Source of the DNA: Paramacrobiotus metropolitanus
Taxonomy: Eukaryota; Tardigrada; Eutardigrada; Parachela; Macrobiotidae
Assembly: GCF_019649055.1 (NCBI RefSeq)
Contig: NW_026570259.1
Location: 930,001 to 994,000 of the forward strand
Length of the DNA stretch: 64,000 bases
Direction of reading: 5' to 3'
Shown: piece by piece, positions 1 to 6,093 of the stretch
How the letters are laid out: each line of letters opens with the position of its first letter
Position numbering within the stretch: position 1 is the first letter of the stretch
The notes under the pieces: generated by a model
Database searches by the model: none
Seen by the model: the letters and a program-made list of their open reading frames with translations, nothing else
Told to the model about the DNA's origin: nothing
Program-made: the position numbers and the translations under genes

Positions 1-71
1 GCAATGTCGTAAGTACGTTGTGGATATTTCTGCTTATTAAGTTTTATTCTTCAGTAGGACATGGTGCCGTC

Positions 72-127
72 GCAATTTAAGTCGATTAACGCAATTTAAG
101 CGTCGTCGATTAACGCAATTTAAGCGT
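72..127. repeat. Short tandem repeat, unit about 21-24 bp
   Basis: The segment GCAATTTAA followed by a GTCGATTAAC block recurs: CGATTAACGCAATTTAAGCG is seen twice, with a partial third copy at the left. No gene is visible from 1 to about 930, and apart from this repeat the stretch looks like AT-rich intergenic DNA. Confidence 0.6.
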
Positions 128-932
128 GAAGACTGTATTTCTGTTTTGTATAATGATCTGTCAAAAGTATAATAATATATTTATATTTTAAATGTACATT
201 CTGTACCATAAAATACGTATACTATAATTAAAGTACAGAGTACTTGCATTGTACTCTGTAGTCTTCAGTAAGGTATATCGAACATTGGTTCTGAAAAATG
301 TTTATTTAAGAAATTTATTCACACCCGGCTTTCAAATTTAAAATTAGCCAACGCTAACTTTCGGCTATTGGATACCCAGAACTCATGTTAACTCATGTTA
401 CGTGCCCAGTACGGCTATAACGGACAAGTTCGAAAGAAAATATCTAATTGTTTTGCTTTTAAATGAATAAAATATTCCTGGCTCAGCTATGCAGCCGGTG
501 TACCTGATCTAGCACAGTAAAAGACCAAAGTTCCGGGAGCGCCGCGCTCACCCTCAGTAGTGACGATAAAGTGGCAGTCAGCATCATTTAGGGAATCTAA
601 ATAAGCATAAAATTAAGCCCACATCTACTCTCCTGCTTTGGTCAAAATTGTAACTAGCGCACATTGCAGCTCGGTTCTAAGTCCAAATACGTAATAGTTC
701 AGTCAAAGATCAGACCCTGACTCAAACAAGCGCTTCCCTTTTCCCCATGGTGCCCGGCAAGCATCGCTTTATCTCACGCATTGGATCCAGATTAACGCGG
801 CTGGGAGAACGTATTTACGCAATGTGACCAACAAATTAGGCAAAATTCCTTTTGAACCACCGCTTGTCTGACAACAAGAGCTAATTATTCTGTAAAGTTT
901 AACGGCAACGAAGGTATTTAACGGCATCGGCA

Positions 933-938
933 TATAAA
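933..938 (+). promoter_or_regulatory. Candidate TATA box of the corazonin gene
   Basis: TATAAA lies 104 bp before the corazonin start codon. A pyrimidine-rich stretch with TCAG-like initiator matches follows about 30-60 bp downstream. The position suits a core promoter, but the call rests only on motif and spacing. Confidence 0.4.
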
Positions 939-1041
939 CGCCGACATGACGGTTTGGTTTCTGTCGATCTTCCGAACACTCAGCGCACGAAGTCATCAGC
1001 GGTTTTTCGGTTTTTTACACTTTTTATTCCATTCTCTTGTC

Positions 1042-1826
1042 ATGGAGAAATTTATCTTATCCGTTACTCTGTTGTTGACCATGCTGTCCTTCTCCGTTGC
1101 CCAACAATTCCAGTTCAGCAAGGTAAAGTACTATGGCGTAAAGGTAATCGTTTTGTGTCATCTCATAGTTAGGTGAGCGAGAAGCTAATACTCCAGGCAC
1201 AATGACAATGCTGCATATTTTCCAGGGCTGGACGCCAGGCAAGCGTAGCGGCCTCCCGCAACCCGGTAAGCCAGCAAAAAGATCTCGATGTAGATGTTTA
1301 ATTGCCGCGCAATGTATTCTGTATCTGTGTTTTCACGAGTTTAAGGGACACAAAATCCCCCTGGGCCGCCGCACTAGGCGTCGGCTTCTTTAACATCACA
1401 GAAGCCGACGCCTAGTGCGGGCGGTCCAGGGAGATTTTGTGTCCCTTACACTCGTGAAAATACAGTAAGTACATGTGCCACTCAACAGGCCCTCCCATAG
1501 CGGTGATGCCGACTGGAGAAAACGCTTTAGTGGATGCCAGTTTGTTCACCAATACCAGACTGCAAATGGACACCGATGAGCTTTTGGGCTTGTGGGCCAT
1601 TCTGAAGCCCAATATCATTGACCAGAATATGGGAATTTCGGCAAGTGGAATTTTTTGCTCTCTGCTGTATTCATGGTGGCCAGTAGTAACATTCGGTAAT
1701 CTCGGTAGGTGTTGCCGCCTTCAGGCATTAAGGGAGACTTCAAATCTAGGATGTTGGCCCGGAAATAGCTGGATAATGCGCTTGTCATCAATAAGTCCGC
1801 ACTATGTAGAATGTTTAGACTTTTAA
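1042..1826 (+). CDS. Crz: Corazonin-type neuropeptide precursor
   Basis: Three exons join in phase: 1042-1122, 1226-1265 and 1489-1826 (152 residues). Residues 1-20 form a hydrophobic signal peptide ending SFSVA. Directly after it comes QQFQFSKGWTP followed by Gly-Lys-Arg, an amidation and dibasic cleavage site, so the predicted hormone is pGlu-QFQFSKGWTP-amide. Arthropod corazonin is pQTFQYSRGWTN-amide: the length of 11, Q1, F3, Q4, S6 and GWT at 8-10 all match. The first intron falls between Lys7 and Gly8 of the peptide. The rest is a spacer of about 110 residues with no second dibasic-flanked copy, as is usual for corazonin-associated regions. AATAAA occurs at 1937-1942. The end of exon 3 is less certain: a GC-AG intron at about 1640-1723 is also in frame. 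AKH or ACP is less likely because the peptide has 11 residues and a GWT core. Confidence 0.85.
1325..1465. repeat. Long near-perfect foldback repeat in corazonin intron 2
   Basis: The left arm (1325-1389) and right arm (1400-1465) are inverted copies of about 65 bp with only a handful of mismatches and a loop of about 10 bases. Both arms carry GGGACACAAAAT and GCACTAGGCGTCGGCTTCT, in opposite orientation. This could be a foldback MITE or a strong RNA hairpin in the pre-mRNA. No terminal duplication is clear. Confidence 0.85.
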
Positions 1827-2488
1827 ACTGCTAAGTTCTGTATATGTTAGCATTATATTAATATTGCACTGTATCTTTCAACAACTGCCCTGCTGCTGCT
1901 GTTATTTGTCGATGCTTCGGGAACGTGCGTAATCAGAATAAATACCACCGGCTCATCAAGTATGTTCGAATTGGGTTCTTTGAGCTAAAATTATGTACCA
2001 TGCAAATTTCGACATTTACATATATTTAGAAAAACAATATAGGCATTTGCAATTCAGCTCCAGCGCATTTGTGACGTGTTGACATGTAAACCGATCGACT
2101 GGTTGAGAGAATGCGCTTATGCAGTTGCACGCCTTTTTGACAAACCTATGTTTTTAATGGCTTTTACTGTGGTCTTCAGCAATAAATGACAAAATGATAA
2201 ATGATAGCATGATAAAATTTGCGAGAAAATTAATGAGGTAGTCAATCAGATTAATTCCAGTTAAATTAATTCTTCGTCACTCTTTTCCCCAGACGCCAGC
2301 CACCGTATGCTCTGGCAACAAAGTGTACAACAGTAAAAAACGCAGACATTTGTGCTAGGAAAACATTATCAGTGCGTGAAAAACCTTACAACAGACACTC
2401 ATAAAAGCAGTTAAAATTCAGAGCATTAGTGAATCACATTTATTATAAGCACGATTCTGACCTACGAACAACTACTACAATTTTACGT
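1827..2488. other. Intergenic, converging gene ends
   Basis: AT-rich sequence holding the probable corazonin poly(A) signal (AATAAA at 1937-1942). I see no other gene. Confidence 0.5.
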
Positions 2489-2944
2489 TCAAATTGTCAC
2501 CCAAAGCGCAAACACGCTAGCCATTAGCGTTACAAAAAGAAGGCCAGGGCGGCTAAATATTATATGGTCAGCTCCGTTACAAAGTTCGGTTGTGCACATG
2601 CACACCGTTGCACCTTTTTCCGATCGGCATTCATTGATGTTTGTTCCAGGGACACCGCAAGCGCGAATCACATTCCCACTGACCTTAGCCTTCACACAGG
2701 TGTTAATCGCGCCGAGAGGACTAGAGCACTTCTGTTTCATTTGTTCAGTAATGTCTTCGCACGCTTCCCCATTTTGGCAGGTGTAACATGAAAATCCGTT
2801 GGCCACTATAAAGCCGAAACAGTGGCGTTACTGTCTGTCACTTCCCCAGTTCAGGTAAATTAGTAGCTTACCCGTAATAAAACCTAGTATAATCAGAATG
2901 ATTCCGCTTGTGGTGATAACCAGCTTTGCCTGTAGTTTCGGCAT
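2489..2944 (-). CDS. Ly6/uPAR three-finger protein, probably GPI-anchored
   Basis: Exon 1 is 2944-2872 and exon 2 is 2805-2489, joined in phase 1 (129 residues). The first 25 residues include a hydrophobic run (LVITTSGIILIILGFITVA) that serves as signal peptide. The mature part starts SCYTC and carries ten cysteines ending CMCTTELCNG, the ten-Cys pattern and C-terminal CxxxxCN signature of the Ly6 fold. A final hydrophobic stretch of about 18 residues (LLFVTLMASVFALWVTI) with nothing charged after it fits a GPI-attachment signal. Ly6 proteins act at the cell surface in receptor modulation, septate junctions and neuronal signalling; which role applies here cannot be told. The two exons are separated by a 66 bp intron. 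Confidence 0.8.
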
Positions 2945-3315
2945 TGCAATGATAAACTATTTTTACTGTTCCCAATGCGGAACTTCAAGTTTTGTGTAGA
3001 ACGTCTTATACAACCTACAAGCGCGGTCGGAAGATAACAGATTAACAGTGCGTATGTTCCTGTGGTAACTCAAATATTACTAGTAATGATAATGTTTTCA
3101 ATACAAATTACTGCATGTAGACGTAAAAGTAATGTAAGCATTAATTTGTAGAACTGCATTTAAATGGCAGAGGATAGTTTAATTATCAGCGTACAATGCG
3201 AAAATTCACCTGAAGGATTACATATAAGCATTTTACGCTTTTTACATAGCTTTTTTACATAGACAAAAATTGGGGTACAATACACAGCTACTTTACGTAT
3301 TTAATACAAATTACG

Positions 3316-6093
3316 ATGGAAGCTGCAAAGGAATTTTCTTTCCCGTATGCGGCGTTTACCCAGTGTAAGCGGATTGGCAAGGCAAAGAATCAGGCGAAAA
3401 CAACATCTTCCGTGGGAAATACGGGCAGCTCCGTTGGGATTATTTCTAGCGCGTATAACGAACCGGAACTGCACGAACAGCTGCAATTAAAAATCGGCAA
3501 GCTCTCCGTGGAAAAGGCTAATTTATTGAACAGAGTTGCATCCTTGGAAAATGAGGTGGATTTACTAATTACCGAGCGAGAAACTGCTGCCCACGCACAT
3601 GGTCAGCGTATTGAACTGTTGGAATGTAGTCTTGATTTGCGACAGAAAGATTTGGAGAATAGTATGATACAACGTTCAGAGCTCGAATCGTTTTTAGTGG
3701 AATCCCAAGGAAAGTTTAGTCAACTGGAAAAAGTCTCCCAGAAGGATGCTCAAGATTATCAAAACGGAATACGGGAAAAAGATAATTACTGCGAAAGGTT
3801 AGAGCAAAAGGTTACGCAACTACAACTGGAGATTCAAGAAAAGGAAAACTGCTACAAAGAATTGATTCTGCCAAAAATTATACCAGAGGTTAAAGAAAGA
3901 TATCCTACGGATGCTGATTGCGGTGATTGTCAGAAACGGAAAACTGAGACTGAGCGAACGCGCGAAGAAAAAGAAATTCTCCAATTAAACATTCAAAAGC
4001 TAATGGATGAAGTTGTAAACGTTCGCAGAGAGTCCCAAGCCAGAGTCGAGCACTACGAATCAAATGCAAAGTTTTTAATCGAGAGCGTAAAAACAAAGGA
4101 ATCTGCAGTTGTGGAGCTGGAAAGGTCACTAGAATCCAACAGGCAGGAGAACTGCGGTCTGATGACAGAAAAAGCCATGTTAAAAGCACAGATGGATAAT
4201 ATTCTGCGTCAGCTGGAAGAAACACAATTAAAGCTGTCTTCCCTGCAAACTGAAAAAGAAGCCATACAGAGTGACCTTTGCCGTAAACTTGAAAAGATGG
4301 CTGGCGAACTGAACGCAGTAAGGTTTAATGCCGTTAATACAATCTCAGAATCCAAATCAGAACTAGAGCGCCGGTTACGTGAAGCCGAGCAGAAATACGC
4401 TTCTATGGAAAAGGAATTTGAAATGCAGCTGTCAAAACTTCAGTCAGAAAAAAGTGCTCTTAAGGAAGAGTTCGATAAACGATTAGCAGAGAATGGTACA
4501 CAGACAGAAGAAGAAGGGAAGCGCAGAATGCGAGCACTGGAAGAACGGCTACAAAATGAAGTTCAAGAATGGAAGCAGGAATACGAGAAAATGAAGGACA
4601 GCCACCAGCAGTATACTAAAATTGTCAACGAACGTTTGGAACAGCACAGTGCAACATTGAAAGAACGTTATGCTTCGGAAATCAACGAACTTCAAGAACG
4701 TGTAAAATTACATTTAGTTACGCAAAAAGAAAAGGATAAAGAGGTGACAAAACTGAAGCAGACGATTTCCCACAAAGAAATCGACTTAAAAAGCGCCAAT
4801 TCACGAATTAATGCGCTCCAGAAGGAAATCAAAGATTTAGCTGAAAAGGTCACGAGTTTGGATAAAGCGGACAAGGAGAACGAGATTTTAACTGCGGAGG
4901 TTAATCGTTTAAAAATGCAGAAGGATCCGGCGACCATCACTCAAACGGTCATCAGAGTGGAACGAGAAATTCTCGAGGAAAGGTTGCAGGAGGAATACGC
5001 AGAGAAACTCAACAAATCTAAGGACAATCTAAAACAGGAGTGGTATAATCAAATCAAAGAGATTAATTCTAGACATGAACAGGAATTGTACGCAGTGTCT
5101 GGCCAGATTTCACAACTGCAGCATGAACGGAACGAAGAACGATTACAGATGGCCAAATGTCGCAGTGATTTTGTTGAGAAAAAACGGCATTTGGAAGAAC
5201 AAATTACGGCATTGGCCACACAAAGTGCCCATGACAGCAAATCTATACAACAGAAATATGAAATGGAGATGAAGCGCATGGCCAAACTCCACGACCAGAT
5301 TGTAAAGAAAATAAAAACGGAAAATGTTGAGTCGATAAAAACTCTTCAGAAAGAGCATAAACATGAGATGGAAGATGCCGAAGAAAGGCTGAGAATGGAG
5401 CGAAATGTTTTGTTAAGGCAGCACCGAGAAGAACAGCGGAATTTACTGGCAAAGTTAGGTGCAACGGTGCAACACTGCGCCGACAAGGAGCAGATTCAAG
5501 AAATTCAATATCTACGTAATCAGAGCGCACAAATGGATTTCGAGCACCGAAAAATTTGCAGCGAGATGCAGCAGGACTTTGATCGGGTGTTGGATCGGTA
5601 CAAAGTTGACTACAAAACAACGGTCGAGGCGCTGGAAAGACGAATTAAGGACAATAATAATCAAGCGCAGCAGGAAATTGTGCAGTTAAGAAATGCTCTG
5701 ACGGATGCCGAGATTCATAACCAACACTTAGAAGAGCATCATCAAATCGAAATCCAAAGGATTCTTCGAAATCGCGATACCGAACTGGAGGAGGCGTTGG
5801 TTGCACAGGAGGATAGCTTAATGCGGGAGAACGATGCCAAGTTAGAGAAGTACCAGAAGCAATCCGATCTGCAGATCCAACAGCTGGACAGTCAAATGCG
5901 CGAGCTGTACAAAGCGTTTGAGCGCAACACCAGTGTGCAGCACGAGACGCATGCTAAACTCAGAACGGCACTGGATCGCAATGATGCACTGGAAACCAAG
6001 CATGCCTTCCTTCATAGAAAGCTGCGTCAGTCAACTGACCACTGTCCTAGAGTAGTAGCCAGTGCAGAGTCTTTGGCGCGAAAAAAGCGATGA
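3316..6093 (+). CDS. Long coiled-coil protein, single open frame
   Basis: One uninterrupted frame encodes 925 residues. After about 55 Ser/Gly-rich residues almost the whole chain is heptad-rich Glu/Lys/Gln/Leu coiled coil, with no recognisable enzymatic domain, signal peptide or membrane segment. The length and continuous heptads suggest a centrosomal, ciliary or cytoskeletal scaffold, but I cannot assign a family. A conserved-looking tail (about residues 740-905, MDFEHRKICSEMQQDFDRVL onward) would be the best search query. It is the longest intronless gene here; neighbours are cut into many exons. The start at 3316 is the first in-frame Met, but a 5' exon cannot be excluded. Confidence 0.75.
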   Translation: MEAAKEFSFPYAAFTQCKRIGKAKNQAKTTSSVGNTGSSVGIISSAYNEPELHEQLQLKIGKLSVEKANLLNRVASLENEVDLLITERETAAHAHGQRIELLECSLDLRQKDLENSMIQRSELESFLVESQGKFSQLEKVSQKDAQDYQNGIREKDNYCERLEQKVTQLQLEIQEKENCYKELILPKIIPEVKERYPTDADCGDCQKRKTETERTREEKEILQLNIQKLMDEVVNVRRESQARVEHYESNAKFLIESVKTKESAVVELERSLESNRQENCGLMTEKAMLKAQMDNILRQLEETQLKLSSLQTEKEAIQSDLCRKLEKMAGELNAVRFNAVNTISESKSELERRLREAEQKYASMEKEFEMQLSKLQSEKSALKEEFDKRLAENGTQTEEEGKRRMRALEERLQNEVQEWKQEYEKMKDSHQQYTKIVNERLEQHSATLKERYASEINELQERVKLHLVTQKEKDKEVTKLKQTISHKEIDLKSANSRINALQKEIKDLAEKVTSLDKADKENEILTAEVNRLKMQKDPATITQTVIRVEREILEERLQEEYAEKLNKSKDNLKQEWYNQIKEINSRHEQELYAVSGQISQLQHERNEERLQMAKCRSDFVEKKRHLEEQITALATQSAHDSKSIQQKYEMEMKRMAKLHDQIVKKIKTENVESIKTLQKEHKHEMEDAEERLRMERNVLLRQHREEQRNLLAKLGATVQHCADKEQIQEIQYLRNQSAQMDFEHRKICSEMQQDFDRVLDRYKVDYKTTVEALERRIKDNNNQAQQEIVQLRNALTDAEIHNQHLEEHHQIEIQRILRNRDTELEEALVAQEDSLMRENDAKLEKYQKQSDLQIQQLDSQMRELYKAFERNTSVQHETHAKLRTALDRNDALETKHAFLHRKLRQSTDHCPRVVASAESLARKKR

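Follow-up and report, generated by a model that had tools for sequence, protein, structure and literature searches.

A probable corazonin-type prohormone gene with an intron inside the hormone in a tardigrade genome, and its relatives

The stretch of DNA analysed here, a window of 64,000 nucleotides with a GC content of 43.35% (C39:930001-994000), very probably contains a real gene for a corazonin-type prohormone at positions 1042-1768. On the + strand, an ATG at 1042 starts MEKFILSVTLLLTMLSFSVA, which is followed by QQFQFSK with 1122 as the last nucleotide; after a first intron of 103 nt (1123-1225) with the borders GTAAAG...TTTTCCAG, the letters GGCTGGACGCCAGGCAAGCG from 1226 onwards read GWTPGKR, and exon 2 carries GWTPGKRSGLPQP. 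When read unspliced, the region of intron 1 leads to a stop. The predicted precursor has 110 residues over four exons, the last of which was deduced from a paralogue on contig C153. The features are as follows.

1042..1122, + strand: coding exon 1, signal peptide (20 residues) and hormone residues 1-7 QQFQFSK; 66 of 81 nt identical to exon 1 of the C153 gene, ungapped
1102..1122, + strand: hormone residues 1-7 (pGlu-Gln-Phe-Gln-Phe-Ser-Lys); the A|Q column also occurs in three related precursors, cleavage site placed by eye
1123..1225, + strand: intron 1, phase 0, GT-AG, between hormone residues 7 and 8; donor and acceptor identical in the C153 copy
1226..1265, + strand: coding exon 2, hormone residues 8-11 GWTP, amidation Gly, Lys-Arg and SGLPQP; 34 of 40 nt identical to the paralogue
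1266..1488, + strand: intron 2, phase 1, GT-AG, 223 nt; the counterpart in the paralogue has 83 nt
1325..1465, no strand: palindromic dispersed repeat (MITE-like hairpin) within intron 2, arms 91% and 100% complementary
1489..1640, + strand: coding exon 3, associated peptide PPIAVMPTGENALVDASLFTNTRLQMDTDELLGLWAILKPNIIDQNMGIS; compared with C153 61% identical as protein (E 8.9e-12), 113 of 143 nt, 9 gap positions
1641..1708, + strand: probable intron 3, phase 0, GC-AG, proposed from the paralogue; GCAAGT donor in both copies, 50 of 66 nt, 11 gap positions
1709..1768, + strand: probable coding exon 4, VLPPSGIKGDFKSRMLARK and stop TAG; compared with VWPPSAIKGDFKSRMLNRK* in C153, 52 of 60 nt, ungapped, stops aligned

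The precursor thus read carries a single peptide straight after the signal peptide (the cleavage site having been placed by eye), followed by a Gly and a dibasic site, which is the arrangement by which corazonin precursors are recognized. The 11-mer itself has the N-terminal Gln, aromatic residues at positions 3 and 5, Ser/Thr at position 6, Gly8-Trp9 and an amidation Gly after residue 11. A preliminary description of this DNA had proposed the same layout of signal peptide, directly adjoining 11-mer and Gly-Lys-Arg, which is borne out by a re-reading of the letters and by the C153 gene. The intron that it had placed after Lys7 indeed has GT-AG borders and phase 0, and lies at the same place in the paralogue; the four differences from pQTFQYSRGWTN that it had listed, at positions 2, 5, 7 and 11, are correct as well.

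The second gene emerged when the whole genome (169,799,020 bases in 533 contigs) was searched at the protein level; of the 10 matches listed, the two weakest (C152, E 0.73; C56, E 8.4) were left aside. The gene on C153, which was matched in exon 3 with E 8.9e-12 and in exon 1 with E 0.0013, encodes QQFQFSKGWSP-GKR, with a phase-0 intron after Lys7 as in the window gene. Exons 1, 2 and 4 of the two copies are equal in length (81, 40 and 60 nt) and align ungapped at 81, 85 and 87% identity; the alignment of exon 3 has 79% identity and 9 gap positions, and the gapped identities of the three introns are 70, 71 and 76%; the 150 nt upstream and downstream are 68 and 67% identical. In the encoded proteins, 78 of 107 residues are identical. 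Over these 107 codons, dN/dS is 0.36 (NG86), 0.41 (LWL85) or 0.50 (YN00), replacement changes thus being rarer than silent ones, and the differences are distributed mildly unevenly over the three codon positions (20, 16 and 24). Such a pairwise comparison points, although not strongly, to a protein that is under constraint. The similarity in DNA between the two copies extends only from about 469 to about 1952 of the window, and no neighbouring gene turned out to be shared in a comparison of the C153 flanks (8.5 and 8 kb) with the window and an 8-kb flank on C39. Since the similarity is so confined and the flanks have no gene in common, it was probably a small piece, carrying the gene and its promoter region, that was copied. 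The 141-nt palindromic repeat in intron 2 is present in the window copy only and is absent from the shorter C153 intron; it is dispersed in the genome, with at least 80 match rows on both strands (40 of 82 candidates scored).

The comparison with the paralogue also bears on the end of the gene. The preliminary description had extended the gene to 1826, a reading that passes through a probable third intron and was rejected, because on that reading the C153 paralogue runs into a stop within 14 codons. Since the paralogue suggests a third, GC-AG intron (1641-1708), the stop is probably located at 1766-1768, and a model of four coding exons spanning 1042-1768 is the most likely one. In the last 19 codons, 16 of the 19 residues agree between the two genes and an aligned stop follows. 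Exon 4 (60 nt) has eight differences, distributed over the codon positions as 2, 3 and 3, in which an excess at third positions is absent, the numbers being too small to count either way.

The occurrence of the hormone motif by chance was examined with the pattern Q.[FY].[FY][ST].GW..GG?[KR][KR], read across GT-AG joins of 40-400 nt. It is found once on the + strand of the window and not on the - strand. Forty random single strands of 64 kb, generated with the same first-order composition, do not contain it at all, and a less strict motif turned up in 2 of the 40. As the motif was defined post hoc, from the peptide that was already known, the paralogue is a stronger argument than this control.

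On the basis of what is known of prohormone biology, signal peptidase would cut after Ala20, the N-terminal Gln would cyclise to pGlu, a prohormone convertase would cut at Lys-Arg and a peptidylglycine monooxygenase would turn the Gly into an amide, which would yield the predicted hormone pQQFQFSKGWTP-NH2. This hormone would be made only if intron 1 is spliced out. Amidation is plausible because the genome has peptidylglycine-monooxygenase-type C-terminal domains (14 matches, a domain that other enzymes share). The released peptide would be expected to act, from neurons, on a G-protein-coupled receptor of the GnRH-receptor class encoded by the same genome. A search with a TM6 consensus probe, and then with a receptor fragment of this genome, uncovered exons of GPCR genes on C93 (two genes), C11, C270, C107, C22, C32 and C4. 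There are at least six genes of the GnRH-receptor class, three of which were checked against solved structures: for fragments from C93, C4 and C32 the best match among all solved structures is the GnRH receptor, which for the C93 and C4 fragments comes ahead of vasopressin and oxytocin receptors. Four of the receptors (two on C93, one each on C11 and C270) form a group with 57-74% identity; those of C4 and C32 and a TM6-7 piece from C22 are more distant (26-47%). The C93 genes stand in tandem (C93:526500-544500), and there the TM7 exon occurs twice (535887-536006 and 537851-537970), with identical protein over 38 residues. The receptor copy on C107 is close to that on C270 and has in-frame stops; the two may represent haplotypes that were left uncollapsed, or a recent duplication. 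The pattern CWTPYY was found at two places, neither of which has an in-frame receptor of the GnRH-receptor class.

The genome contains at least five corazonin-like genes, namely those of the window and C153 together with three others, and three genes of the AKH/RPCH type:

C227:26138, + strand: corazonin-like gene, QKFQYSRGWMPG-GKR, frame uninterrupted
C25:422599, - strand: corazonin-like gene, QQFQFSRQWRP-GKR, uninterrupted
C5:144506, - strand: corazonin-like gene, QQFQFSRLWHP-GKR, hormone uninterrupted, likely intron farther on
C227:28854, - strand: AKH/RPCH-type gene, QLSFSTGWGH-GKR, AKH Pfam 24.8 bits, above the cut-off of 22.9
C22:204574, strand not given: AKH/RPCH-type gene, QFNFSPNW-GKR, AKH Pfam 29.2 bits, above the cut-off
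C2:2750264, - strand: AKH/RPCH-type gene, QFNFSPNW-GKR, AKH Pfam 22.6 bits, partial sequence scored

All five corazonin-like peptides are predicted to end in a Pro- or Pro-Gly-amide. An intron within the hormone is found in two of the five genes (window and C153), whereas those on C227, C25 and C5, whose peptides follow QxFQ(F/Y)SRxWxP, are without it. The C25 and C5 peptides have no Gly before the Trp. A pattern for exon 2 gave 19 places in the genome, five of which were inspected: the window and C153 proved to be hormone genes, and the places on C12, C21 and C85 were rejected. Judged from their letters, at least three of the other 14 places (C6:350441, C95 and C240) could also read GWxxG(K/R)(K/R), so that the number of five genes is a lower bound. 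A pattern for exon 1 gave 10 places; four of them fell on the window or on genes found before, and one, on C5, was new. Those on C8 (twice) and C15 were rejected because they had no signal peptide or no GKR, and those on C62 and C70 were set aside, since the letters there give no Q.FQ[FY]S. An Adipokin_hormo match on C30 (14.7 bits) was dismissed as chance. The corazonin-like and AKH genes on C227 (C227:25000-27500 and C227:27298-30354) are oriented towards each other, with 2.7 kb between their hormone codons, and are possibly the relic of a tandem duplication. In the RPCH-like gene on C2 (C2:2748681-2751764), the signal-peptide frame is apparently broken as compared to its sister on C22, for which reason only a part of this gene was scored; the copy may have decayed, the assembly may be wrong at this place, or translation may start farther downstream.

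We consider it probable (about 0.82) that the window gene is a corazonin-type neuropeptide prohormone gene, with a peptide that would be processed, released and act on a GPCR of the GnRH-receptor class. Among Pfam models, the precursor scores 20.6 bits with Corazonin (PF17308) against 17.7 with Adipokin_hormo, and no other model was listed; both values are below the cut-offs (25 and 22.9 bits), which makes this a preference rather than a formal hit. The predicted peptide matches centipede corazonin at 8 of 11 positions and typical and locust corazonin at 7 of 11, as compared to 5-6 of 11 for the seven molluscan and annelid peptides among the ten published peptides used. For the C153 peptide the values are 8 (centipede), 6 (typical and locust) and 5-6 of 11 (molluscan and annelid), and its 6 of 11 with typical arthropod corazonin is no better than that of several molluscan peptides. 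The preference of the preliminary description for corazonin over AKH is supported by the 11-mer with its FQ(F/Y)S(K/R)GW core, by the sub-cut-off Pfam preference and by the location of AKH genes elsewhere in the genome.

The most serious competitor, which we nevertheless regard as improbable, is that the window gene encodes a GnRH-type ligand, or a peptide of the unassigned kind between GnRH and corazonin that is found in molluscs, and that the C227 gene with its FQYSRGW is the true corazonin gene. The Pro- or Pro-Gly-amide ends of all five peptides resemble those of several lophotrochozoan GnRH/corazonin peptides, and the C227 precursor scores in Pfam with Corazonin only, keeps FQYSRGW and has in QKFQYSRGWMPG a core that is nearer to arthropod corazonin (8 of 11). 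The C227 gene is also the only one that a genome scan with the Corazonin model detected (17.5 bits), but such a scan can easily overlook a hormone whose codons are divided between two exons. The C25 and C5 precursors favour Adipokin_hormo, also below cut-off. Against a GnRH-type ligand, the lophotrochozoan peptides with HFS(N/H)GWxP are not the closest match of the window peptide (5-6 of 11, against 7-8 of 11 for the corazonins), and the slot of AKH, the arthropod GnRH-type hormone, is taken by other genes. Intron numbers are no consistent guide to whether a gene is of the corazonin, GnRH or AKH type: the window gene has three introns, in Tian 2016 the deuterostome corazonin genes have two and the GnRH genes one, and a 2023 lancelet paper gives the opposite counts, one for corazonin and two for GnRH. 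A passage of PMC5024129 calls insect corazonin and AKH genes similar in structure.

That the window gene itself belongs to the AKH/RPCH type is hardly credible. Even though the families are kin within one superfamily and the precursor reaches 17.7 bits with Adipokin_hormo, the AKH hallmarks of 8-10 residues, W at position 8 and a W-, WG- or WGX-amide end (as given in a section of PMC5024129) are lacking in a peptide of 11 residues with W9 and WTP-amide, and the genome has AKH-type genes for QLSFSTGWGH and, twice, QFNFSPNW. These share with the window gene the superfamily, the precursor layout, the N-terminal Gln and the amidation Gly, and differ in having 8-10 residues, W at 8 and a hormone without an intron. 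Equally remote is a decayed or unexpressed copy. The repeat inserted in intron 2 might suggest decay, whereas the frame is open over four exons, the splice sites are usable, dN/dS is 0.36-0.50, and the hormone and GKR have been kept.

The nearest of the ten published peptides, the corazonin that Table 4 of PMC5592718 gives as pQTFQYSKGWEPa for the centipede Strigamia maritima, has in common with the window peptide the 11 residues, pGlu, FQ at 3-4, Ser6, Lys7, GW at 8-9 and Pro-amide at 11; in this comparison of peptides alone, the window peptide has Gln2 for Thr, Phe5 for Tyr and Thr10 for Glu. Lys7 and Pro-amide11 are not new, since both occur in this centipede peptide. Thus, the Pro11 residue emphasized in the preliminary description is present, but carries less weight than was assigned to it, because Strigamia corazonin shares it together with Lys7, and a GWxP-amide end is also seen in the peptides of oyster, scallop and Capitella. 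Arthropod corazonin, given as pQTFQYSRGWTNa in excerpts of PMC5592718 and PMC13167112, resembles the window peptide in its position right after the signal peptide, its length, pGlu, FQ, S, GW and T, and is unlike it at residues 2, 5, 7 and 11. The intron within the hormone is not universal, since in planthopper Crz the ATG and the stop are on one exon, as stated in a part of PMC13167112. The molluscan and annelid GnRH/corazonin peptides, such as pQNYHFSNGWQPa of oyster and pQAYHFSHGWFPa of Capitella (an excerpt of PMC5592718, in which the scallop peptide also ends in GWxP-amide), are likewise 11-mers, several with a GWxP-amide end, and differ in having an HFSN or HFSH core where the window peptide has FQFSK.

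Corazonin and GnRH/AKH are paralogous systems of which the ligands are hard to distinguish in molluscs and annelids. Koziol, in 2018, is said to have described both families, corazonin and GnRH, as present and duplicated in the tardigrades Hypsibius and Ramazzottius. The strings FQFSKGW, FQFSRQW, KFQYSRGWMP and FQFSRLWHP had no match in the literature searched, to which that study did not belong. Hypothetical tardigrade corazonins are mentioned in a passage of PMC10730642. With its five or more corazonin-like ligands, its three ligands of the AKH/RPCH type and its several genes of the GnRH-receptor class, this genome is a good place for studying the co-evolution of ligands and receptors and the ancestral C-terminus. 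Taken singly, the window gene is ordinary, and the structural curiosity, an intron inside the hormone that it has in common with one paralogue, is small. More speculatively, and with rather low odds, at least five genes of the corazonin/GnRH family would have radiated here, all keeping a Pro- or Pro-Gly-amide and two gaining (or keeping) the hormone intron; the C227 pair might then go back to an ancient AKH/GnRH-corazonin tandem duplication, and the GWxP(G)-amide end would be ancestral and the arthropod Asn-amide derived.

Some further features of the window may be mentioned. No Rfam family matched positions 1-5000 at the gathering threshold. A cysteine-rich frame resembling Ly6/QVR is located at 2489-2956 on the - strand (Pfam QVR, E 0.017, under the cut-off), and a coiled-coil-like open frame of 925 residues, to which no credible Pfam match was obtained, is found at 3316-6093 on the + strand. 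Upstream of the hormone gene, at 81-127, GTCGATTAACGCAATTTAAGCGT occurs twice, 24 bases apart.
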